Source: Myxococcales bacterium (GTDB lineage: Bacteria > Myxococcota > Myxococcia > Myxococcales > JAKAPL01). From it: DNA of 49,633 bases. This document shows, one piece after another, positions 377 through 48,513 of this stretch. Location of the stretch: positions 1 to 49,633 of the forward strand of contig JAJXUD010000029.1 of NCBI GenBank assembly GCA_021783235.1, given 5' to 3'. Position 1 is the stretch's first letter. Each line of letters begins with the position of its first letter. The notes beneath the pieces were generated by a model that made no database searches, was not told the DNA's origin, and saw only the letters and a list, made by a program, of their open reading frames with translations. The position numbers were made by a program, and so were the translations under genes.

Positions 377-799
377 ATGCAGCGCCTCCATCTGCCCGGG
401 GTGGGCCCCGCCGAGCGGCTGGCGGACCTCGCGACGCGCTGGCGAGAGCTCGCTGCGGCCTCGGTGGAGCCGCTTGGGCTCTCGCTGATGCAGGCTGCGA
501 TTCTCCTCGCGCTCCTGAAGCGCCATCCCGAGCCGCTGTCGCAGCAAGAGGTCATCGAGAAGACGCAGCTCCCGCCCTTCGAGGTCTCCCGGCGGCTCTC
601 GTCGCTCGAACGGGCGGGCCTGTCGCTCCGCCCGCCGCGCGTTGGGCGAGAGCGGCTGGTCTCGCTCACGAAGGAGGGCCTCCTCGCGGCCCAGCGGGCC
701 CGCGCCGCGCTCGATTTGGCCGAGCGTCGCTTCCTCTCGCCGCTCGGTGAGCAGGTCCGCCTGCTCACGGCGGTCTGCAAGCGGCTCGGGTCAGGCTAG
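377..799 (+). CDS. MarR-family winged-helix transcriptional regulator
   Basis: The product is 140 residues, the usual MarR length. Residues about 35-110 fit the winged helix: LGLSLMQAAILLALLKR, then the recognition-helix region QQEVIEKTQLPPFEVSRRLSSLERAGL, then a basic wing (PPRVGRERLVSLTKEG). The C-terminal helix would form the dimer interface. The family binds palindromic DNA and often responds to small phenolic or oxidant ligands; no ligand can be inferred here. The ATG at 377 has only a weak ribosome binding site. It is transcribed divergently from the unknown gene at 1-86 and is followed directly by the 21-bp repeat array, which may or may not be related. Confidence 0.8.
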   Translation: MQRLHLPGVGPAERLADLATRWRELAAASVEPLGLSLMQAAILLALLKRHPEPLSQQEVIEKTQLPPFEVSRRLSSLERAGLSLRPPRVGRERLVSLTKEGLLAAQRARAALDLAERRFLSPLGEQVRLLTAVCKRLGSG

Positions 800-849
800 G
801 CACGGCTCGCTCGGAGCCAGGACGGGCTCCCTTGGATCGCACCGAGGCC

Positions 850-1122
850 TCGTTGGGCTCCAGCTCGATCGAGCTGGCCTCCACCGAGGGCTCGTTGGAT
901 TCCATTTCGGCCGAGTTGGAATCGAATGGGCCCGAGTTGGAATCCAATCGGCCGGAGTTGGAATCCAATCGGCCGGAGTTGGAATCCAATCGGCGCGAGT
1001 TGGAATCCAATCGGCGCGAGTTGGAATCGAATGGGCCCGAGTTGGAATCCAATCGGCCCGAGTTGGGATCGAATGAGCCGGAGTTGGAATCCAATCGGCC
1101 CGAGTTGGAATCCAATCGGCGC
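850..1122. repeat. Phased 21-bp tandem repeat array, 13 units
   Basis: Ten near-identical units of GAGTTGGAATCCAATCGGCC plus one base run head to tail from 913 to 1122. Three diverged units at 850, 871 and 892 keep the same 21-bp phase. Most units hold the short palindrome TTGGA-A-TCCAA. Variant units (913, 1018, 1060) carry correlated changes to CGAATGGG or CGAATGAG. Because 21 is a multiple of 3, several frames stay open. The plus frame starting at TTG 832 reads as heptads ELESNRP and runs to 1239, antisense into the end of the permease gene. I cannot decide between a coding repeat and a DNA-level array. The gap 800-1153 holds nothing else. Confidence 0.85.
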
Positions 1123-1153
1123 GGTGAGCCCCCCAGCGCGCGCTCCCACCCCG

Positions 1154-2065
1154 TCAGCGCGCCTCGGGGTCCCACGGCACGCCGTCGGCCGCGGGGGGCA
1201 CGGCGCGGCCGACGAAGCCCGCGAGCGCGAGGAGCGTGAGCAGGTAGGGGAGGGCGAGGAAGAGGCCGCGGGGCACGAGCGCCGCGAGGGCGCCGCCCGA
1301 CGAGGAGATCTCGATCTGCAGCGCCTCGGCGCCCGCGAAGAAGACCGCCGCGCCGAGGGCGCCGAGCGGGCTCCACTTGCCGAAGACCACCGCGGCGAGC
1401 GCGATGAAGCCCTGTCCCGCCGGCATCCGGTCCTCGAAGCGGCCGAGCACCGCGAGGGGGAGGAGCGCGCCGCCGAGGCCGGCAGCGACGCCGCTCGCGG
1501 TCACCGCGAAAAAGCGGAGGCCCCGCACCGAGACGCCCGCGGCCGCGACCGCGCGGGGGTTCTCGCCGACGGCGCGCCAGCGCAGGCCGAGCGGCGTCTT
1601 CGCGAGTAACAGGGAGGCGAGGGCGGGGAGCAGCAGCATGGCCGCGGCGGCGACCCAGGGCAGCCGGCCGAGGCCGCCGAGCGAGAGGCTCGGCAGCGCG
1701 GGGACGGGATCGGTGATGCCGCCCGCGGCGCCGAGCGCCCACTCGAGCAGGAAGGTGACGAGGCCGAGCGCGAGCAGGTTCAGCGCCACCCCGGCGACGA
1801 TCTGATCGGCCTCGGCGAAGATCGCGAGGGCCGCGAGCAGCGCGCCCGCGGCGCCGCCCGCGAGCGCCCCCGCCGAGAGGCCGACCCAGGCGCTCTGCGA
1901 GGCGAGCGCCGCCCAGGCGCCGAAGAAGGCGCCGAAGCGCATGATCCCCTCGAGCCCGAGGTTCACGACGCCCGCGCGCTCGGAGAGGACGCCGCCGAGC
2001 GCCGCGAGCGCCACCGGCGGGGCGAAGGCGAGGATCGAGACGACGAGCGTCGTCAGCTCGCTCAT
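1154..2065 (-). CDS. Nucleoside ABC transporter permease (NupQ-like)
   Basis: This 303-residue protein consists almost wholly of hydrophobic helices, about eight to ten. The motif GGVLSERAGVVNLGLEGIM near residues 24-42 is characteristic of the BPD_transp_2 permeases that pair with BmpA/PnrA-type binding proteins. It would form half of the inner-membrane channel for nucleosides. It is last in a four-gene leftward operon. Its ATG overlaps the upstream permease stop by 4 nt (ATGA, 2062-2065), indicating translational coupling. Substrate assignment rests on family and on nearby nucleoside phosphorylase genes. Confidence 0.85.
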   Translation of the reverse strand: MSELTTLVVSILAFAPPVALAALGGVLSERAGVVNLGLEGIMRFGAFFGAWAALASQSAWVGLSAGALAGGAAGALLAALAIFAEADQIVAGVALNLLALGLVTFLLEWALGAAGGITDPVPALPSLSLGGLGRLPWVAAAAMLLLPALASLLLAKTPLGLRWRAVGENPRAVAAAGVSVRGLRFFAVTASGVAAGLGGALLPLAVLGRFEDRMPAGQGFIALAAVVFGKWSPLGALGAAVFFAGAEALQIEISSSGGALAALVPRGLFLALPYLLTLLALAGFVGRAVPPAADGVPWDPEAR

Positions 2066-3195
2066 GCGGGCGGACTCGCGAGCGGCGGAGGGGCGGGCGC
2101 GGGGGCGGCCGAGGCCGTCCTTCGCTGCCGGAGCGGCAGCCGGTAGAGGCCGCGCAGGAGCCGCTGCCCCGCGACGAGGACCACGGCGACGCCCTGGGCG
2201 ATCTCGGGCCAGGAGCGGTGGAGTCCGACCTCGGGGTCCTGGAGCCGGACGGCGCCCGCGCGCAGGACGCCGAAGAGCGCCGCCGCGAGCGCGACGCCGA
2301 CGGGGTCGCCCGCGCCGATGAGGGCGATGGCGATGCCGTCGAAGCCGTAGGGGTCGCGGTAGTTCTCGGGGAAGCGGTAGTCGGTGCCGCCGCCGAGCAA
2401 GAGCAGGGCGCCGCCGAGGGCGGCGAGCCCCCCGCCGAGCGCGAGCGCCTGGATCGTGCGGGCGCCCACCGGGATGCCGACCGTCCGCGCCGCCTTCTCG
2501 GAGGCGCCGAGCGCCCGCAGCTCGAGGCCGAAGCGGCTGCGGCGGAGCAGCAGCGCGGCGGCGAGGATCCCGAGCGCCGCGAAGAGGATCCCGGCGTTGA
2601 GGCGGCTGTCGGGCCCCGCGAGCAGCGGCAGGTGGGCCGCCGAGCGCACCGCCTCGGTGCCGGAGTGGGAGAAGCCCGAGCTGCCCGAGGCGTGGAGCGG
2701 CCCCACGACGAGCCAGGAGTCGACGAGGTGGATCGCGATCCAGTTGAGCAGGATCGTGGAGATGACCTCGTGGACGCCGCGCGAGGCCTTGAGGAAGCCC
2801 GCGAGCGCCCCGAGCGCCGCGCCGGCCGCGAAGGCCGCCGCGAGCGCCGCGCCGATGAGCAGCGGCCCCGGCAGATCGAGGGCCGCGCCGATCCAGGCGG
2901 CCGCGATCGCCCCCGCGACGAACTGTCCCTGGGCGCCGATGTTGAAGAGGCCGCCCGCGTACGGGACGGCGACGGCGAGCCCGGTGAAGGCGAGCGCGGT
3001 GGCCTTGAGGGACGACTCGCCGAGCGGGCCGAGGCCGCCGAGGCCGCCGTCCCAGAGCGCCTCGGCCGCGAGCAGGGGCGAGCGGCCCAGCGCGGCGATG
3101 GCGACGGCGCAGAGCCCGAAGGCGAGCCCGACCGCCAGGACGGGGAGGAGGAGCGGCTCCTGGGCGAGCCAGCGGGCGCGCGCGCGCGGCGTCAC
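2062..3195 (-). CDS. Nucleoside ABC transporter permease (NupP-like)
   Basis: The product is a 377-residue polytopic membrane protein of the BPD_transp_2 family. Diagnostic stretches are PYAGGLFNIGAQGQFVAG around residues 78-95 and the cytoplasmic segment SRGVHEVISTILLNWIA about residues 138-154, which match permeases of the BmpA-linked nucleoside importers. The C-terminus ends in an Ala/Pro-rich tail. The start is GTG at 3195, overlapping the ATPase stop by 4 nt (GTGA). It should pair with the permease at 1154-2065 as a heterodimer. Confidence 0.85.
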   Translation of the reverse strand: MTPRARARWLAQEPLLLPVLAVGLAFGLCAVAIAALGRSPLLAAEALWDGGLGGLGPLGESSLKATALAFTGLAVAVPYAGGLFNIGAQGQFVAGAIAAAWIGAALDLPGPLLIGAALAAAFAAGAALGALAGFLKASRGVHEVISTILLNWIAIHLVDSWLVVGPLHASGSSGFSHSGTEAVRSAAHLPLLAGPDSRLNAGILFAALGILAAALLLRRSRFGLELRALGASEKAARTVGIPVGARTIQALALGGGLAALGGALLLLGGGTDYRFPENYRDPYGFDGIAIALIGAGDPVGVALAAALFGVLRAGAVRLQDPEVGLHRSWPEIAQGVAVVLVAGQRLLRGLYRLPLRQRRTASAAPAPAPPPLASPPA

Positions 3196-4724
3196 GCCGC
3201 CGCTCCGGACATGAGCAGCCCGAGCCGGCCGTCCGTCGCCTCGCGGGCGGCCGCCTCGCCCGTCACCCTCCCGGCGCAGAGGACGACGATCCGGTCGGCG
3301 ATCTCGCGCAGCTCGTCCAGGTCGAACGAGACGAGGAGGACGGCGGCGCCGCCCGCCGCGGCCTCGCGCAGCCGTGCGCGGACGAGCGCCTGCGCGTTCA
3401 GATCGAGCCCGCGGGTGGGGTGGACGGCGACGACGAGCTTCGGGCGGCGGCCGAGCTCGCGCGCGAGGAGCAGCTTCTGCTGGTTGCCTCCCGAGAGGGC
3501 GGAGGCCCGCATCCCCGGCTCCGGCGGGCGGATGTCGTAGGCGCGGATGGCCGCCGCCGCCTCGGCGACCAGCCGCCGCCGGCGGAGCGGGCCCGGCGAG
3601 CCGAGCGCGAGGTTCTCGGCGACCGAGAGCGCGCCGAAGAGGCCGCCCCGCAGCCGGTCCTCGGGGACGTGGGCGACGCCGCGCGCGCGCAGCTCCCGCG
3701 CCCGGGCGAAGGTGAGGTCGACGCCCTCGACTTCGAGCCGGCCGGCGTCGAGGGGGCGAAGCCCGGTCAAGACCTCGGCGAGCTCTCGCTGGCCGTTCCC
3801 GTCGACGCCCGCGACGCCGACGATCTCGCCCGTGTGCAGCGCGAGCGAGACGCCGCGCAGCGCGGGCGCGCCGCGGTCGTCGCGGCAGGCGGCGTCCGAC
3901 AGGCGGAGGACGATCTCGTCGACCCCCCGACTTCGCGGGGGAGGGGAGGCTGCTCCCCCGGGCGAAGGGCGGGGGAGGCCGGTCGGGGGGGCAGAGGCGT
4001 CGCCCACCATCAGCCGCGCGATCCGCTCGGGCTCCGCCCCCTTCGCGTCCAGCGTCGCGACGAGCCGCCCGGCCCGCAGCACCGCCACCCGGCTCGCGAC
4101 CGCGAGGACCTCGCGCAGCTTGTGGCTCACGAAGAGGACCGCCCGCCCTCCCCGCGCGAGCCGGCGCACCGTCTCGCAGAGCGCCTCGGACTCGGCCGGG
4201 CCGAGGGCGCCGGTGGGCTCGTCGAAGGCGACGACGCGGGCGCCGCGCCAGAGGACCTTCAGGATCTCGACCCGCTGCCGGCTCGCGACCGAGAGCTCGG
4301 CGACGCGGCCCCTTGGATCGATCGGCAGCCCCTCGCGCTCGGCGACCTCGGCGACCTCGCGCTCCGCGCGTCGCCGGTCGAAGGGGCCGGCGAGGCCGAA
4401 CCGGCGCGGCTCGCGTCCGAGGACGACGTTCTCGGCGACGGTGAGCGGCTCGACCAGCGTGAAGTGCTGGTGGACCATCCCGAGGCCCCGGGCCTCGGCG
4501 TCGGCGGGCGAGCGCCAGCGGCGGACGGCGCCGTCGAGCGCGATCTCCCCCTCGTCGGGCCGGTAGAAGCCGAGGAGGAGGTTCAGGAGCGTGGTCTTGC
4601 CGGCGCCGTTCTCGCCGACGAGCGCGAGCACCTCGCCCGCGGCGAGGGCGAAGGAGACCCGGTCGACGGCCCGCAGCTCGCCGAAGGATCTCGAGAGCCC
4701 GCGCGCCTCGAGGATCGGCGTCAA
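3192..4724 (-). CDS. Nucleoside ABC transporter, double ATP-binding subunit (NupO/RbsA-like)
   Basis: This 510-residue protein has two fused ABC ATPase domains. The first has Walker A GENGAGKTTLL near residue 38, a signature-like LSVASRQRVEI, and Walker B VVAFDEPTGAL. The second has the degenerate P-loop GVDGNGQ typical of the C-terminal half of this family and the signature LSGGNQQKLLLA. The domains are joined by a Pro/Ser-rich linker around residues 245-268 that is encoded by a GC-rich palindromic insert (3923-3990). The TTG start at 4724 overlaps the stop of the binding-protein gene by 4 nt (TTGA). It would energise import by the two permeases downstream. Confidence 0.88.
   Translation of the reverse strand: MTPILEARGLSRSFGELRAVDRVSFALAAGEVLALVGENGAGKTTLLNLLLGFYRPDEGEIALDGAVRRWRSPADAEARGLGMVHQHFTLVEPLTVAENVVLGREPRRFGLAGPFDRRRAEREVAEVAEREGLPIDPRGRVAELSVASRQRVEILKVLWRGARVVAFDEPTGALGPAESEALCETVRRLARGGRAVLFVSHKLREVLAVASRVAVLRAGRLVATLDAKGAEPERIARLMVGDASAPPTGLPRPSPGGAASPPPRSRGVDEIVLRLSDAACRDDRGAPALRGVSLALHTGEIVGVAGVDGNGQRELAEVLTGLRPLDAGRLEVEGVDLTFARARELRARGVAHVPEDRLRGGLFGALSVAENLALGSPGPLRRRRLVAEAAAAIRAYDIRPPEPGMRASALSGGNQQKLLLARELGRRPKLVVAVHPTRGLDLNAQALVRARLREAAAGGAAVLLVSFDLDELREIADRIVVLCAGRVTGEAAAREATDGRLGLLMSGAAA
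3923..3990. repeat. 68-bp palindromic insert in the ATPase linker
   Basis: Terminal inverted repeats CCCCCCGAC (3923-3931) and GTCGGGGGG (3982-3990) match perfectly over 9 bp. Inside, TTCGC (3932-3936) is mirrored by GCGAA (3962-3966), and GGGGGAG (3937-3943) by CTCCCCC (3953-3959). The element lies wholly inside the ATPase coding sequence and keeps the frame, adding a Pro/Gly/Ser/Arg-rich linker between the two ABC domains. It resembles the small palindromic elements that insert in frame in other bacteria. Confidence 0.55.
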
Positions 4725-5851
4725 CGGGGCGCCGCCGCGAGCGGCTCGGGGCGGCTCGGGACGGAGATCTGGCCGGCGATGATGGCGGCGCGGAGCGCGG
4801 CGAGCTTCTCGAGCGCCGCCGCCTTGCCGGGGAAGTCGATCCGGATCGGCGCGAGGCCGACCCCGCCCTCGGCGAGCCCGAGCTCTCGGTTGCCCGGCGA
4901 GAAGCGGCCCGCCGCGGCGTCCCGCGCCGCCAGGTAGACCGCGTAGTCGACGTGCTTGATCATGGAGGTGAGGACCGAGGCGGGCGCGAGCTGCGACTGG
5001 TCGCTGTCGACGCCGACGACGAAGCGGCCGGCCTCCTTCGCGGCCTCGATGACGCCGAGGCCGTCGGCCCCGGCCGCCTGGTAGGCGACGTCGACGCCCC
5101 CGGCGTAGAGCGCCTGCGCGACCCGCTTGCCGGCGCTCGAGTCGTCGAAGCTGCCGGTGTACTGGACGATGGCCGCCGCGGCGGCCGCGGGGTTCGTCGC
5201 CGCGAGCCCCGCGCGGAAGCCGGCCTCGAAGCGCTGGATGAGCGGGACCTGCATGCCGCCGACGAAGGCCACCTTGCCGCTCCTCGTCGCGAGCCCCGCG
5301 AGCGCGCCGACGAGGTAGCTCCCCTCCTGTTCGCGGAAGGTGAGGCTCTCGACGTTGGGCAGGGTCACCGGCCGGCCGGCCGCGTCCAGGATCGGGCTGT
5401 CGATGAGCAGGAAGCGCTGTTCGGGCTGCGCCCGCGCCTCGGCGGCGACCGCGTCCTCGAGCATGAAGCCGACGCCCAGCGCGAGCGCGACGTGGCGGGA
5501 GACGAGCAGCTCGAGGTCGGGCCGGTAGTCCTCGGAGGCGCGCGCCTGCAGGACGTAGGGGCGCAGTCCGGCGACGCGGGGCAGGCCCGCCGCGCCGGCT
5601 CGCTCGATCACGTCGGCCGGCACGCCCGCGAGGCGCTCGGGCTCCGAGAGCGGGCGGTAGCCAGAGGCGCCGTAGGCGAGCCCGCAGGCCCAGCCCTCGA
5701 GGCCCCGGAGCGCGCCGTCGTTGAAGGACTGATCGCCGCGGCCGCCGACGTCGGTGACGACGCCGATCGTCTTCTCGCCGCTCGCCCGGGGCGCCGGAGG
5801 AGGGCGCCGGCAGGCGGTCGCGGCGAGGAGCGCGCAGAGGAGCGGGCGCAT
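4721..5851 (-). CDS. BmpA/PnrA-type nucleoside-binding lipoprotein
   Basis: The product is 376 residues. It starts with a lipoprotein signal (MRPLLCALLAATAC), with lipid attachment expected at Cys14. The mature part begins with IGVVTDVGGRGDQSFND, the hallmark of the BmpA/Med/PnrA (PF02608) purine-nucleoside binding proteins, and later has GGMQVPLIQRFEAGF and VDSDQSQLAPASVLTSM. It would capture nucleosides and deliver them to the ABC complex encoded just downstream. ATG 5851 was chosen because it has GAAGGCGGG upstream and gives the signal peptide; the frame stays open far beyond it only because of GC bias. It is first in the operon and divergent from the phosphorylase gene. Confidence 0.87.
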   Translation of the reverse strand: MRPLLCALLAATACRRPPPAPRASGEKTIGVVTDVGGRGDQSFNDGALRGLEGWACGLAYGASGYRPLSEPERLAGVPADVIERAGAAGLPRVAGLRPYVLQARASEDYRPDLELLVSRHVALALGVGFMLEDAVAAEARAQPEQRFLLIDSPILDAAGRPVTLPNVESLTFREQEGSYLVGALAGLATRSGKVAFVGGMQVPLIQRFEAGFRAGLAATNPAAAAAAIVQYTGSFDDSSAGKRVAQALYAGGVDVAYQAAGADGLGVIEAAKEAGRFVVGVDSDQSQLAPASVLTSMIKHVDYAVYLAARDAAAGRFSPGNRELGLAEGGVGLAPIRIDFPGKAAALEKLAALRAAIIAGQISVPSRPEPLAAAPR

Positions 5852-5886
5852 CCCGCCTTCATACCACGACCCTGAGGCGAATGCGG

Positions 5887-5916
5887 TTGACGTGGGCCGA
5901 ACGGCGAGGGTACGAC
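5887..5916 (+). promoter_or_regulatory. Possible promoter for the pyrimidine phosphorylase gene
   Basis: TTGACG (5887-5892) is followed after 18 nt by TACGAC (5911-5916), a weak -10. If used, transcription would begin almost at the GTG start (5924), giving a leaderless message. The -10 matches consensus poorly. The 72-bp gap also has to hold the divergent promoter of the importer operon. Confidence 0.25.
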
Positions 5917-5923
5917 CCGAGCC

Positions 5924-7231
5924 GTGATCGCCTACGAGCTCATCAAGCGGAAGCGGGACGGCGGGGCGCTCACGCCCGACGAGATCGACTGGTTCCTCGA
6001 CGAGGCGACGGTCGACCGGATCCCGGACTACCAGATCTCCGCGCTCCTCATGGCGATCTACTTCCGCGGCCTCTCGCCGGAGGAGCTCACCGCCTGGACG
6101 ATGGGGATGCTCCAGTCGGGCGACGTCCTCGACCTCGGCGACATCCCGGGCCCGAAGGTGGACAAGCACTCGACGGGCGGAGTCGGGGACAAGGTCTCGA
6201 TCTGCCTCGCGCCGCTCGCCGCCGCCTGCGGGCTGCGGGTGCCGATGATCTCGGGGCGCGGCCTCGGCCACACGGGCGGCACGCTGGACAAGCTCTCCGC
6301 GATCCCGGGCTTTCGGACCGACCTCGGCGTCGACCGCTACCGCGAGCTCGTCGCCCAGGTCGGCGCCTGCCTCATCGGCCAGACCGATCGGCTCGCGCCG
6401 GCCGACCGGAAGCTCTACGCGCTGCGGGACGTCACGGCCACCGTCGAGTCGATCCCGCTCATCGCCGCCTCGATCATGAGCAAGAAGCTCGCCGAGGGGA
6501 TCGACGCGCTGGTGCTCGACGTCAAGGTCGGCAGCGGCGCCTTCATGAAGGAGCTCGGCGCGGCGCGCGAGCTCGCCGAGACCCTCGTCGGCATCGGCCG
6601 CTCGATGGGGAAGCGGACCACCGCCCTGCTGACCCGCATGGAGCAGCCGCTCGGGCTCGCGATCGGGAACGCCCTCGAGGTGGCGGAGGCCGTCGAGCTG
6701 CTCGAGGGCGGCGCGCCCGCGGACCTCGTCGAGGTGACGATCGCGCTCGGCGTCGAGATGCTCTCCCTCGGCGGCGTCGCGCAGGGCGAGGCGGCCCGGG
6801 ACGTCCTCTTGCGGGCGATCGCCGACGGGAGCGGCCGCAAGAAGCTCGACGAGATCGTCGAGGCGCAGGGCGGCGATCCCAGGTCGCTCGAGAAGGGCTG
6901 CGCCGGGCTGCCCCGCGCCCCGCGCAAGGAGGAGCTCCTCGCCTCCTCGGCGGGCGCCGTCGCCGCCATCGACGCGGAGCTCGTGGGCCTCGCCGGCGTC
7001 GCCCTCGGCGCGGGCCGCGAGCGGACCGACCAGGAGATCGATCCCGCGGTCGGGGTCGTCCTCCACCGCAAGCTCGGCGATCGGGTCTCGCCGGGCGAGC
7101 CGCTCTGCACCATTCACGGCCGCGAGCCCAGCCGCATCGAGCGCGCCCGCGAGATGCTCGGCCGCGCCTTCGCGATCGCCCCCGAGGCCCCGCCGCCCGG
7201 GCCGCTGATCCTCGAGCGGATCGCGAGTTAG
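5924..7231 (+). CDS. deoA: Pyrimidine-nucleoside / thymidine phosphorylase
   Basis: The product is 435 residues, the normal length for the DeoA/Pdp family. It splits thymidine or uridine with phosphate into base and (deoxy)ribose-1-phosphate in the cytoplasm. The phosphate-binding motif KHSTGGVGDK lies near residues 80-89. The substrate segment YALRDVTATVESIPLIAASI is followed by MSKKLAEG, holding the expected Arg, Ser and Lys. The C-terminal alpha/beta domain is complete (VVLHRKLGDRVSPGEPL). The start is GTG 5924, since the family N-terminus (MIAYELIKRKRDGG) begins there. It faces away from the nucleoside importer, which fits salvage. Sequence reading alone cannot separate DeoA from Pdp. Confidence 0.9.
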   Translation: MIAYELIKRKRDGGALTPDEIDWFLDEATVDRIPDYQISALLMAIYFRGLSPEELTAWTMGMLQSGDVLDLGDIPGPKVDKHSTGGVGDKVSICLAPLAAACGLRVPMISGRGLGHTGGTLDKLSAIPGFRTDLGVDRYRELVAQVGACLIGQTDRLAPADRKLYALRDVTATVESIPLIAASIMSKKLAEGIDALVLDVKVGSGAFMKELGAARELAETLVGIGRSMGKRTTALLTRMEQPLGLAIGNALEVAEAVELLEGGAPADLVEVTIALGVEMLSLGGVAQGEAARDVLLRAIADGSGRKKLDEIVEAQGGDPRSLEKGCAGLPRAPRKEELLASSAGAVAAIDAELVGLAGVALGAGRERTDQEIDPAVGVVLHRKLGDRVSPGEPLCTIHGREPSRIERAREMLGRAFAIAPEAPPPGPLILERIAS

Positions 7232-7290
7232 CCGCGCATCGCCAATCGCCCTGGAGCCGCGCGCGGACTCCCCCTCGTCTCGACGGATCA

Positions 7291-7322
7291 GCGGCCCCGC
7301 TGTCCGGTGGACAACCGGCCGC
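7291..7322. terminator. Hairpin downstream of the phosphorylase gene
   Basis: GCGGCC (7291-7296) pairs with GGCCGC (7317-7322), enclosing the inner palindrome TGTCC-GGT-GGACA (7301-7313). It lies 60 nt after the phosphorylase stop and about 40 nt before the next ATG. There is no T-tract, so it could be a factor-dependent end, an mRNA-stabilising hairpin or an operator for the next gene. Confidence 0.35.
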
Positions 7323-7364
7323 TCGGCCCGTAAACTGACGACTTCATCCGGGAGCGGGAGACCC

Positions 7365-9044
7365 ATGAAGACGAAGGCCTTGCTCGCGCTGCTCTGCCTC
7401 GCCTCTGTGGGTTGCCCCGGCAACGGAGGCTCCGACGCCGGACCCGAGTGCTCGGGCGGTTGCCCGCTCCACGAGACCTGCGTGGGCGGACGCTGCCAGT
7501 GCGAGGTGAACTTCGCCGCCTGCCCCGCGAGCGCCGACGGCGGCGCCGCGGACGCCGGGACCGTCTGCGTGCAGACCTCCCAGGACCCGCAGAACTGCGG
7601 CGGCTGCGGCGTCGTCTGCCCCGCGGGCGAGGCCTGCCTCGGCGGAAGCTGCCAGTGCAACGCCGCCCAGTGCCCCGGCCCCGACGGCGGCCTCGTCTGC
7701 TCGGACCTCCAGTCCGACCCGCAGAACTGCAGCCAGTGCGGCGAGCTCTGCCCCGAGAACGAGCAGTGCGTCGGCGGCCTCTGCCAGTGCCCGAGCGGCA
7801 ACACGATCTGCCCGCTCGCGGACGGCGGCGTCGTCTGCACGGATCTCTCGTCGGACCCGAACAACTGCGGCGGCTGCGCCCTCGGCTGCGACGGCGGGAG
7901 CTGCCAGTGCGACCCGGCCACCCAGCTCTGCCTCGCGCCCGCGCCGGGCCAGCCGGGAAGCTGCAGCTGCCAGGGGACCTTGACCCCCTGCGGCGCGAAC
8001 GGCGGCGGCTGCGTCGACACCAACGGCGATCCGAACAATTGCGGCGGTTGCGGCCAGCTCTGCCCGACCGGCAACTGCGTGGGGGGGGTCTGCGTCTGCG
8101 ACGCGCCGTACACGAAGTGCGGGACCGACTGCACGAACCTGCTCTCCGACGTCCACCACTGCGGCGCCTGCGGCAACGACTGCGCCCTCGGGCCGGGCGC
8201 GGGGCTGTCGGGCGTGGCCTGCGACCAGGGGAGCTGCGTCTGCGCCCTCGCGAGCGGCTCGAGCGGAAGCATCTGCGCCTCGGGCAGCGGCGGAAGCTGC
8301 GTCGACCTCATGAGCGACGCGCAGAACTGCGGTCGCTGCCAGGCCCCCTGCCCGGCGCCGACCACGAGCTGCACCGACGGCAACTGCACCTGCCCCGCCC
8401 AGACGCAGCTCTGCACGAGCGGCGGGAACGCGAGCTGCACAGATGTCTCGCGCGACGTCTCGAACTGCGGGAGCTGCGGCAACGCCTGCGCCCAGAGCTT
8501 CGCGCAGGGTTCGAGCTGCAGCCTGGGCCACTGCGTCTGCACCGACGTGCAGATCCTCTGCATCGGCCAGACATCGCCGCTCGCCTGCGCCTGCGAGGCG
8601 GCCGACGGCGGCAGCGCCTGCCAGCAGCCGCGCCTCGCCTTCGCCGACGTGGCGCCCATCCTGACCGATCCGAGCGCACCCCTCGGCTGCGCCACCTCCG
8701 GCTGCCACAGCGCCCAGGCCCACGCCGGGGGCCTCGACCTCTCGAGCGCGCAGGCGGCCTACGCCGGGCTGCTCGGGAGCGCCGACGGCGGCGTGGCCTC
8801 GTCCTGCGACGGCGGCCCGACCGGCGGCTTCGGCAGCGTCCCCTCGCAGGCGTGCCCCTGCGCCGCCCGGGTCGTCCCCGGCGTGCCGGCCTCGTCCTTC
8901 CTCCTCCAGACGCTCTCCAACTCGTCGAGCCTCTGCGCCGGCGCCCTCCCCATGCCGGTCGACTCGGACGGCGGCTTCCACTCGCTGAGCGCCTGCGAGA
9001 TTCAGCTGCTCACCGTCTGGGTCGCCCAGGGGGCCAATCCCTGA
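7365..9044 (+). CDS. Cysteine-rich lipoprotein with C-terminal haem-like CX4CH motif
   Basis: The product is 559 residues with a lipoprotein signal (LLALLCLASVGC, Cys17). Residues about 25-400 form roughly ten cysteine modules of the type DPQNCGGCGxxCPxGxxCxxGxCxC, common in myxobacterial surface proteins and probably disulfide-linked. The last 130 residues differ: Cys442, Cys447 and His448 form CATSGCH, followed by AGGLDLSSAQAAYAGLLG, which resembles the atypical c-type cytochrome-like domains of Myxococcota and Planctomycetota. Haem binding is inferred. ATG 7365 has GGGAGCGGGAG upstream. The next gene begins 5 nt after its stop. Its role is unknown; it probably sits on the cell surface or in the outer membrane. 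Confidence 0.8.
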   Translation: MKTKALLALLCLASVGCPGNGGSDAGPECSGGCPLHETCVGGRCQCEVNFAACPASADGGAADAGTVCVQTSQDPQNCGGCGVVCPAGEACLGGSCQCNAAQCPGPDGGLVCSDLQSDPQNCSQCGELCPENEQCVGGLCQCPSGNTICPLADGGVVCTDLSSDPNNCGGCALGCDGGSCQCDPATQLCLAPAPGQPGSCSCQGTLTPCGANGGGCVDTNGDPNNCGGCGQLCPTGNCVGGVCVCDAPYTKCGTDCTNLLSDVHHCGACGNDCALGPGAGLSGVACDQGSCVCALASGSSGSICASGSGGSCVDLMSDAQNCGRCQAPCPAPTTSCTDGNCTCPAQTQLCTSGGNASCTDVSRDVSNCGSCGNACAQSFAQGSSCSLGHCVCTDVQILCIGQTSPLACACEAADGGSACQQPRLAFADVAPILTDPSAPLGCATSGCHSAQAHAGGLDLSSAQAAYAGLLGSADGGVASSCDGGPTGGFGSVPSQACPCAARVVPGVPASSFLLQTLSNSSSLCAGALPMPVDSDGGFHSLSACEIQLLTVWVAQGANP

Positions 9045-45654: not shown

Positions 45655-48513
45655 TCAGGTGCTGCAGATGCCCGGAGTGCTCTTGCCGCAGCCGCAGCCC
45701 GTGCAGGAGGCGCTGCACGTGCCACCCGCACAGCACGGTTCGTTCAGGCCTCCGCAGGTGATGCAGACGCCGGTGACGCAGACCTGCGTCGCGGTGCAGG
45801 GCGTGGCGGAGCAGCCCCCGCAATGGTTCGGATCGCTCTGCGTGTCGATGCATGTCCCGCCGCAGTTCGTCTCGCCGGTCGGGCAGCCGCATGAGCCACT
45901 CGTGCAGACGCCGCCCACCGCGCACACGCTGCAGTTGCCGCTACCGGCCGCGCCGCAGGCGCCCGGATCGGTCCCCGGCTGGCAGTCGCCGGTCGAATCG
46001 CAGCAGCCGTAGCCGCACGAGGTTGCGTTGCACGAGCCCACGCTCGTCGAGGGGCACGCCACGCCCAGGTTGCAGACGCAGATCGACCCGTTCGACGTGA
46101 GCCCGGCGTTGCAGCTATTCCCGGCGCACGGCGCCTCGTTCAGGCCGCCGCAGACCCCGTTGCAGCTGCCGGAGGAGCAGGTCTGATCGGCGCCGCAGAG
46201 GTTGCAGCCGTTGCCCCCGATGCCGCAGGCGCCGGTCGTGTCCCCGGGCTGGCAGTTGCCGCTCACGTCGCAGCAGCCGTGCGCGCACGAGGTCGTGTTG
46301 CAGGAGCCCGCGCCCGTCGACGGGCAGCTCACGCCGGGGCTGCACGCGCAGACGTTGCCGGACTTCGCGAGCCCCGCGTTGCAGCTGGTCCCGCCGCACG
46401 GGGTCTCGTTCAGCCCCCCGCACACCCCGCTGCATGCGCCCGAAACACAGGTCTGGTCGGCGCCACAGGCGAAGCAGCCATTCCCCCCGGTGCCGCAGGC
46501 GCCCGTGACGTTGCCCGGCTCGCAGTTGCCGTTGAGGTCGCAGCAGCCGCTCGCGCAGGAGGTCGTGTTGCAGGAGCCCGCGCCCGTCGACGGGCAGCTC
46601 ACGCCGGGGCTGCACGCGCAGACGCTGCCGGACTTCGCGAGCCCCGCGTTGCACGTACTGCCGGCACAGGGAGGCTCGTTCAGCCCGCCGCAGGCGGCGC
46701 TGCAGGAGCCCGAGACGCACGCCCGGTCCGCGCCGCAGGCGCTGCAAGCGCCGCCGTTCTTGCCGCAGGCGCCGGTGCCGGTGCCGAGCTGGCAGTTGTC
46801 GCTCCCATCGCAGCAGCCGTGCGCGCACGAGGTCGTGTTGCAGGAGCCCGCGCCCGTCGAGGGGCAGGTCGCGGCCGAGTTGCAGACGCAGAGCGATCCG
46901 TTCGACGTCAAGCCGAGGTTGCAGCTCCCTCCGGCGCAGGGCGGCTGGTCGAGGCCGCCGCAGGTCGCGCTGCCGCAGGCGTGGCCCGTGCAGAGAGCGT
47001 CGGCGCCGCAGGTGGCGCATCCGGCGCCGCCGCTGCCGCAGGCGCCGTTCGTGTCCCCAGGCTCGCAGTTCCCGCTCGCGTCGCAGCAGCCGCTCGGGCA
47101 CGAGCTGGCCGAGCACGAACCGCCCCCGGTGGACGGGCAGGCCGCGCCGCCGCTGCATGCGCAGCTGCTGCCCGAGACCGTGAGCCCCGGGTTGCAGCTC
47201 CCTCCGGCGCAGGGCGGCTGGCCGAGGCCGCCGCAGGTGGGCCCGGTGCATGCCTGGGAGGCCGAGCAGCTCTGGTCCGCGCCGCAGGCGGTGCAGGTCG
47301 CGGCGCTCTTGCCACAGGCGCCGCTCGTGTTCCCTGGCTCGCAGTCGCCGCTCGAATCGCAGCAGCCGTCGGGGCAGGAGTTCGAGTTGCAGGATCCGCC
47401 GCTCGTCGACGGGCAGCTTGCCCCGCTGTTGCAGGCGCAGATGCTGCCGGAGACGACCAGGCCGGGGCCGCAGCTCGTCGACGCGCAGGTGGGCTCGTTC
47501 AGCCCGCCGCAGTCCCTGCACTGGCCGCTCTCGCACTGCTGCCCGGCGGTGCACTGGATCCCGCAGTTGCCGCAGTTCTTGTCGTCGTTCGCGAAGTCCA
47601 CGCAGAGGGAGCCGCACTGGTTCTCACCCGAGAGGCAGGTGACGGCGCAGGCGCCGGACCCATTGCAGATCTCTCCGCTCGGGCAGAGGTGGCCGCAGCT
47701 CCCGCAGTTGTTCAGGTCGATGTTGGTGTTGGCGCAGTAGGGCCCGGTGCCGCCGTCGCAGGTGGCGAAGCCGGCGGCGCAGCTCCCCGAGCAGTGGCCG
47801 GTACCGTCGCACGTCTGGCCGCCTTGGCACGGATTGCCGCAGGCGCCGCAGTTGGCGATGTCGGTGTCGGTGTCGGTGCAGAAGGTGGCGGGCGCGGTGC
47901 CGCAGAGCTTCGGCACGCTGGCCGGGCAGGCGCAGCCGCCGTCGCTGCAGCTCTCGCCCGCGGGGCACGCCGTGCCGCAGGCGCCGCAGTTCTGGTCGTC
48001 GGCCTTCACGTCGACGCAGAGACCCGTGCTCGCGCAGAAGGTGCCCGTGGGCGGGAGGCAGGTCGAGGCGCAGATCCCACCCGTGCAGACTCGCCCCGCG
48101 CCGCACGCCTCCCCGCCGTCGCCCGCGCAGCCGCCGCAGTTGGCAGGGTCGTTCTGGAGATTCGCGCAGTAGGCGGTCGCGCCGCTGCCGCACGTCGTGA
48201 GCGGGCTCGCGCAGGTGGCGGCGCAGGCGCCGGCCGAGCAGCTCTCGCCGGCGAGGCAGGCGTGGCCGCAGCTCCCGCAGTTCTTCGGGTCGGTCGCGAG
48301 GACGGCGCAGGTCGATCCGCAGATCGTCCCCCCGGCGAGGGTGCAGGTCGACTGCGCGCTCGGGAGCGGCGCGCACTGTCCGGCGACGCAGCTCTCGCCC
48401 GTGGCGCAGTCGGCGTTGCTCTGGCAGGGCCCGGGGGAGGAGGTGTACTGGAAGCAGCCCGCCAGGGCGGCGACCGCCATCAGGAAAGGCAGCGTCCGAG
48501 CGGAGATGGTCAT
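45655..48513 (-). CDS. Large cysteine-rich repeat lipoprotein
   Basis: The product is 952 residues with a lipoprotein signal (LMAVAALAGC, Cys20). Residues about 30-330 are short modules of the type DPKNCGSCGHACLAGESC. Residues about 330-890 are six long modules of about 90 residues, each running CGGLNxPPCAG, then SGSxCxCxxG, CPSTGxGSC, GCCDxxGNCxPG and CGADQxC; a seventh starts near the end. They are encoded by DNA with a 270-bp period. It likely forms a rigid, disulfide-rich surface stalk. ATG 48513 gives a proper signal. Myxobacteria encode many such proteins; no activity is known for this one. Confidence 0.85.
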   Translation of the reverse strand: MTISARTLPFLMAVAALAGCFQYTSSPGPCQSNADCATGESCVAGQCAPLPSAQSTCTLAGGTICGSTCAVLATDPKNCGSCGHACLAGESCSAGACAATCASPLTTCGSGATAYCANLQNDPANCGGCAGDGGEACGAGRVCTGGICASTCLPPTGTFCASTGLCVDVKADDQNCGACGTACPAGESCSDGGCACPASVPKLCGTAPATFCTDTDTDIANCGACGNPCQGGQTCDGTGHCSGSCAAGFATCDGGTGPYCANTNIDLNNCGSCGHLCPSGEICNGSGACAVTCLSGENQCGSLCVDFANDDKNCGNCGIQCTAGQQCESGQCRDCGGLNEPTCASTSCGPGLVVSGSICACNSGASCPSTSGGSCNSNSCPDGCCDSSGDCEPGNTSGACGKSAATCTACGADQSCSASQACTGPTCGGLGQPPCAGGSCNPGLTVSGSSCACSGGAACPSTGGGSCSASSCPSGCCDASGNCEPGDTNGACGSGGAGCATCGADALCTGHACGSATCGGLDQPPCAGGSCNLGLTSNGSLCVCNSAATCPSTGAGSCNTTSCAHGCCDGSDNCQLGTGTGACGKNGGACSACGADRACVSGSCSAACGGLNEPPCAGSTCNAGLAKSGSVCACSPGVSCPSTGAGSCNTTSCASGCCDLNGNCEPGNVTGACGTGGNGCFACGADQTCVSGACSGVCGGLNETPCGGTSCNAGLAKSGNVCACSPGVSCPSTGAGSCNTTSCAHGCCDVSGNCQPGDTTGACGIGGNGCNLCGADQTCSSGSCNGVCGGLNEAPCAGNSCNAGLTSNGSICVCNLGVACPSTSVGSCNATSCGYGCCDSTGDCQPGTDPGACGAAGSGNCSVCAVGGVCTSGSCGCPTGETNCGGTCIDTQSDPNHCGGCSATPCTATQVCVTGVCITCGGLNEPCCAGGTCSASCTGCGCGKSTPGICST
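46021..47190. repeat. 270-bp tandem period inside the cysteine-rich gene
   Basis: Matching blocks occur at 46021, 46291, 46561 and 46831, exactly 270 bp apart, with a diverged copy at 47101. The blocks at 46291-46380 and 46561-46650 differ at one base in 90. Units of 90 codons keep the frame, so copy number could change by recombination. Confidence 0.75.

Follow-up and report, generated by a model that had tools for sequence, protein, structure and literature searches.

The window analysed here, a stretch of 49,633 nucleotides from a Myxococcales bacterium, contains an intergenic array of 21-bp units in strict phase. Two other arrays of the genome are related to it, and it is part of a genome-wide, mostly intergenic set of arrays. 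The factor common to these arrays is their period, and not their sequence, strand, neighbours or reading frame. We consider the array in the window to be probably a non-coding minisatellite, which arose from an expansion process biased towards units of 21 bp, that is, two helical turns. The unit length of minisatellites outside genes is usually regarded as arbitrary, and the fixed length of 21 bp, rather than the single array in the window, is the point of interest. If a two-turn length is imposed across unrelated loci and lineages, the expansion step is set by DNA geometry or else the cell makes use of the phase.

The array was confirmed as a head-to-tail series of units that lies between genes and has zero indels (Table 1). 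The matches given in the table refer to the consensus TTGGAATCCAATCGGCCCGAG, with the diverged units counted as 0-3 and the near-identical ones as 4-13. In the preliminary description the array began at 850, which is one unit late: the register begins at 832. The ten near-identical units described there were recovered, but the diverged units number four and not three, and the array reaches further to the left. The exact period of two helical turns was borne out by TRF, which calls positions 894-1120 with period 21 (and a score of 340 at period 63), and by the self-identity of the array, which is 0.79 at lag 21 versus 0.34 at lag 20 and 0.33 at lag 22. TTGGAATCNAATNGG has 9 matches, compared to 0.00 expected from 100 shuffles. 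The linked change from CCAATCGG to CGAATGGG that had been described was found again in two units (916 and 1021), with a related form in unit 1063.

Table 1. Coordinates of the array, its parts and the adjoining reading frames in the window
Feature	Position	Strand	Details
MarR-type transcription factor ORF, upstream of array	377..799	+	PF12802 (MarR_2), E 4e-7, above cut-off
Whole array	832..1125	.	14 head-to-tail 21-bp units
Four diverged units, 21-bp register retained	832..915	.	10-16/21 matches to consensus
Ten near-identical units	916..1125	.	16-21/21 matches to consensus; TTGGAATCCAA in 7
ORF through array (LESNRPE heptads), judged spurious	832..1239	+	best Pfam match sub-threshold, 16.8 bits vs cut-off 36
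ABC permease (BPD_transp_2) gene, convergent, ends just beyond array	1154..2065	-	PF02653, E 2.2e-38; gene call

With head-to-tail units in the class of ~10-100 bp that are located outside genes, the array falls among the minisatellites or VNTRs. It is not a CRISPR array, as the units abut without unique spacers, and an origin from heptamers was rejected as well, since there is no 7-bp sub-period (lags 7 and 14 give a mean identity of 0.17-0.30). Positions 800-1153 fold better than shuffles on both strands (z ~-5.8), which is expected of a palindromic repeat, and a role of an RNA structure was rejected. Rfam gave no match at the arrays in the six loci scanned, and plasmid and phage collections gave no match. 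The inverted symmetry of the array as a whole (0.66) is not better than the phase-shuffled maximum (0.66), whereas the arrays of family B, which are described below, do show such symmetry.

Searching the genome and its relatives for the unit, as had been suggested, was productive, and yielded two related arrays as well as the genome-wide 21-bp set. The DNA of array 1, as we call the array in the window (also A1), matched one further place in its own genome, on contig C23 (A2; 67 percent identity), and had no match in 98 other genomes; a pattern search added the third array of this family A, on contig C95 (A3). Of the 145 genomes examined in the order, two contain a two-unit pattern, with 20 matches in the own genome and a single one-mismatch match in the other. 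The diverged flanks of the family A arrays retain the 21-bp register for up to ~300 bp, each phased flank ranking first of 21 phases. The z values are 3.6 for A1 left (in-phase profile score of positions 820-894), 6.7 for A2 left, 5.7 and then 3.0 in the two halves of the A2 right flank, 6.1 for A3 left and 3.5 for A3 right. The stretches beyond lose the phase (A1 right, z 0.1; A2 right3, z -1.2). As a side observation, the gene next to array 2 (L002, 508-1146) encodes a BMC-like domain (PF00936; its 21.8 bits fall below the cut-off), which hints at a microcompartment locus.

The frame 832-1239 named in the preliminary description exists as an ORF, and a coding heptad repeat (ELESNRP) had been one of the two readings offered. 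Open frames run through arrays 1 and 2, and related heptads are present in all three A arrays. In addition, A2 lies within an open minus-strand frame of 301 aa that matches PF12072 (RNase_Y_N) slightly above the cut-off (35.3 vs 32 bits); we read this as a low-complexity match, but it does count against a minisatellite. However, a period divisible by three opens frames trivially, and synonymous changes are not in excess. In the LESNRPE frame of array 1, 2 of the 13 distinct unit changes are synonymous, compared to an expected fraction of 0.27, and no frame of arrays 1-3 has a convincing synonymous excess (the largest being 5/8 versus 0.35, at small counts). Taking the best of six frames, the synonymous fraction was no better than simulated for the 22 arrays of the own genome (G000; 0.402 vs 0.443); the observed and simulated fractions were 0.424 and 0.446 in a genome of the same family (G001, 6 arrays) and 0.375 and 0.421 (G145, 17 arrays), 0.462 and 0.424 (G146, 8 arrays) and 0.433 and 0.429 (G147, 5 arrays) in three MAGs from other phyla. 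The array on C95 is broken by a 2-bp shift, with stop codons in five of the six frames, the one on contig C17 has them in all six, and the 125 indel events in 79 arrays comprise 122 of 1 bp, 3 of 2 bp and none of 3 bp. The synonymous fraction, the stops and the sizes of the indels led us to reject a heptad-repeat protein, whether in the ELESNRP or in the minus-strand frame; we hold it to be very unlikely. Coding is not supported, and the ELESNRP frame of the array is probably coincidental.

The gap between the MarR-type ORF and the convergent permease gene (800-1153) is filled by the array. The iterons of a replication origin would adjoin the gene of a replication initiator; the two adjoining genes here are those just named. 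While the adjacency to a MarR-type gene was noted correctly before, we found nothing beyond it in favour of the suggested binding of MarR to the array. The adjacent protein would bind TTGGA-N-TCCAA, the unit is palindromic, and 32 bp separate the MarR-type stop from the first unit. Yet the array lies downstream of the MarR-type gene, where the 3' ends of two convergent genes face each other, and TTGGANTCCAA, allowing for up to 2 mismatches, is absent from positions 200-376 upstream of the MarR ORF, i.e. from its own promoter region. Moreover, the related arrays on C23 and C95 adjoin other genes, and the permease locus of G001 (8 kb around) has neither a MarR gene nor a 21-bp array. An array of MarR operators is therefore extremely improbable; the link is one of adjacency, has no support beyond this, and the neighbour is best regarded as coincidental. 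With respect to orientation, 6 arrays lie between co-directional, 4 between divergent and 1 between convergent neighbours, versus 117, 68 and 47 among all gaps of 150 bp or more. Because this shows no preference, a role as terminator or promoter was rejected; a pattern scan detected nothing promoter-like, and its one terminator-like site lies outside the array.

Arrays of this period are a feature of the whole genome. In 714 kb of G000, TRF detected 53 arrays with a period of 60 or less, 19 of which have period 21 and 2 period 42. The corresponding search in 323 kb of G001 gave 13 arrays of the period 21 type out of 34, and 279 kb of three genomes from other families (G003, G006 and G009) gave one of period 21 and one of period 42 among 9 arrays. 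When only intergenic arrays scoring at least 70 were considered, with genes called by a home-made hexamer caller and not a standard one, 14 of 22 in G000 had period 21 (12 arrays) or 42 (2 arrays), and 11 of 13 in G001 had period 21, one of the latter lying on C2, a presumed contaminant. Arrays inside called genes mostly have periods that are multiples of three, and period 21 accounts for 5 of 24 in G000 and 2 of 19 in G001. Overall, 17 of the 23 listed arrays of the 21 type overlap no called gene.

To compare densities, we counted 21-type arrays of at least 105 bp, without the pieces of G000 that had been targeted and without contig C2 of G001. There were 14 in 648 kb of G000, 6 in 307 kb of G001, 1 in 86 kb of G002 and 3 in 542 kb of nine genomes from eight other families of the order (G003-G011). 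The family thus has 21 such arrays in 1041 kb versus 3 in 542 kb for the other families, which is a ~3.6-fold difference in samples that are mostly contig starts and so favour arrays that break assemblies. The family is clearly enriched in the period and moderately so in density, and the fact that the excess in density is only ~3.6-fold counts against a minisatellite from a 21-bp-biased process. The units are unlike from locus to locus although the period is common, and some of them recur at a few loci (CGATCAG, GGATGGATCGTCGTCC and GAAGCAGAATC cores).

The main rival of an expansion process is a DNA-binding protein that reads the phase: a dimeric nucleoid-associated protein or regulator would sit on the unit dyads, all on one DNA face, with the register held by selection. 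Two of the features that speak for such a protein also count against a minisatellite. First, the register survives in the diverged flanks, and neutral decay need not preserve it. Second, the unit is palindromic, which would suit a dimer. An embedded palindrome had indeed been described before, though as present in most units, while exact TTGGAATCCAA occurs in just half of them (7/14, starting at 937, 958, 979, 1000, 1042, 1084 and 1105). In the weighted consensus of the three A arrays, 16 of 21 positions are self-complementary, a value that was reached by 177 of 20,000 shuffles (p ~0.009). Unit dyads are also in excess in G145 (27 arrays, Fisher p 9.5e-7) and G146 (14 arrays, p 2.5e-4). The palindrome is genuine in family A, but it is not a rule across this genome, as dyads are not in excess among the units of G000 overall (21 arrays; the mean stem is 3.48 vs 3.61 shuffled, p 1). 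In addition, units change between loci, so that one binding protein would not fit. The ratio of indels to substitutions is 0.04-0.08, which does not support a strict register constraint overall; in bacteria, neutral ratios have a similar order of magnitude. We therefore regard a helically phased binding array as a rather unlikely explanation.

A remnant of a mobile element, with the minisatellite inside a MITE-like element of the BrickBuilt type, would account for the recurrence of unit families at several loci. Family B, with the unit CGATCAG, is found on eleven contigs of G000, and at the four loci that were inspected (contigs C27, C116, C120 and C61; L119, L222, L226 and L223) two inverted arms of units point inward to a similar centre, as might be found in such an element; several contigs end inside the arrays. 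Three of the four inspected loci and further B loci show a higher-order repeat of 85 bp (21+21+22+21), a length that is not divisible by 3. However, the flanks of family B have almost nothing in common beyond the array within the genome, and in the course of the other analyses no leader, tail or terminal inverted repeats came to notice at array 1. Taken together, we think a mobile origin quite unlikely. Family B also occurs on contig C2 of G001, of which positions 4757-7939 (L133) are 99.5 percent identical to contig C116 of G000 over 3183 bp, whereas other sampled contigs of G001 have best matches with 66-91 percent identity. This sharing was first read as conservation, which was dropped because the sequence identity indicates that G001:C2 is likely a misbinned contig. 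For the locus of array 1, no second strain was found; C2 and C116 meet in an array other than array 1, and where they join there may be an insertion or a chimeric assembly.

For the minisatellite that we favour, the following course can be envisaged. Arrays would grow by tandem duplication of local sequence, through slippage or unequal recombination, and the process would favour units two helical turns long (21 bp), a step that we infer. New loci would be seeded now and then, which would give rise to small unit families. The units would then drift, and those at the edges would be older and diverged.

Arrays of this kind are not confined to the order. A scan for a three-unit pattern in ~85,000 species genomes returned 24 stretches, which include true-looking coding heptads (by eye, two stretches from Thermoanaerobaculia and one from Halothiobacillus) as well as arrays of ambiguous coding status; several of them hold additional 21-bp arrays with other units. 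Two stretches with the pattern were found in viral contigs, for which unit tables and TRF were used. Among the arrays of at least 105 bp, a period of 21, 42 or 63 was seen in 22 of 23 in a Bacteroidetes MAG (G145, 120 kb sampled), 7 of 7 in a Spirochaetaceae MAG (G146, 37 kb) and 4 of 6 in a Tannerellaceae MAG (G147, 95 kb); the first two are far richer in such arrays than the genomes described above. As the three were picked by a match to the 21-bp pattern, the presence of such arrays in them follows from the selection, but the period of 21 in nearly all of their other arrays does not. The caller places 14 of 26 arrays in G145 and 7 of 13 in G146 inside called genes, so that an intergenic location is not established for these two genomes. 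In the Bacteroidetes MAG CAIMUP01 (L236-L242) 21-bp arrays occur at a density of roughly one in 5 kb, nearly all with a unit of their own and many with a unit dyad. We put forward, tentatively and as a doubtful generalization, that some bacteria of at least three phyla may have in common a process that generates or maintains non-coding tandem arrays, of any unit sequence, with a unit of exactly two turns (21 bp); in the richest cases such arrays make up ~3 percent of the sampled DNA. If true, this would mean either an expansion machinery of a new kind or an element of chromosome architecture that is read by helical phase rather than by sequence.

The full-text literature searched, a scope outside which most subscription papers fall, yielded no description of a genome-wide class of intergenic 21-bp arrays, and this absence is weak. 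Like bacterial intergenic minisatellites and VNTRs, the arrays consist of tandem non-coding units with divergence at the edges; unlike VNTR loci, they have one period that dominates intergenic arrays genome-wide while the units vary. The phrase "21 bp tandem repeat" occurs in papers on the typing of Coxiella burnetii and Mycobacterium leprae, for single loci. The BrickBuilt MITE of Porphyromonas gingivalis has a unit of 23 nt, forms one family and contains leader and tail subunits with inverted-repeat ends (PMC4596501). It resembles our array in being made of spacerless short tandem repeats at several loci, and differs from the 21-bp unit and from array 1, where such ends were not seen. SPADE found abundant intergenic repeats of tandem heptamers whose function is not known (PMC6344855). 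These share a fixed period that is widespread in intergenic DNA, and 21 is 3 x 7, but the 21-bp arrays differ in lacking the sub-period of 7 bp. A survey of DNA structural patterns lists tandem units up to 11 bp, and the related literature includes a paper on triplex repeats.

Some observations were made elsewhere in the analysed sequences. Contig C17 of G000 (L109) contains an ORF of 1148 aa (1868-5314) with the RuvC and Nuc-II domains of C2c1 (Cas12b). Close to the contig end (7777-7885) a 36-nt repeat occurs twice, 73 nt apart, and judging from these elements this is a probable type V-B CRISPR locus. The 21/63-bp array of this contig (414-1142) is located upstream of the Cas12b ORF and is distinct from the CRISPR. 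A Cobalamin riboswitch (RF00174, 59.1 bits) was found at L098, 10940-11071. In the window itself, a tandem repeat of 270 bp with 5.5 copies (45952-47451) lies inside a large predicted gene, and an ORF of 1324 aa (4721-8695) has a C-terminal Bmp/PnrA substrate-binding domain (PF02608), its long N-terminal part probably not being translated as called.
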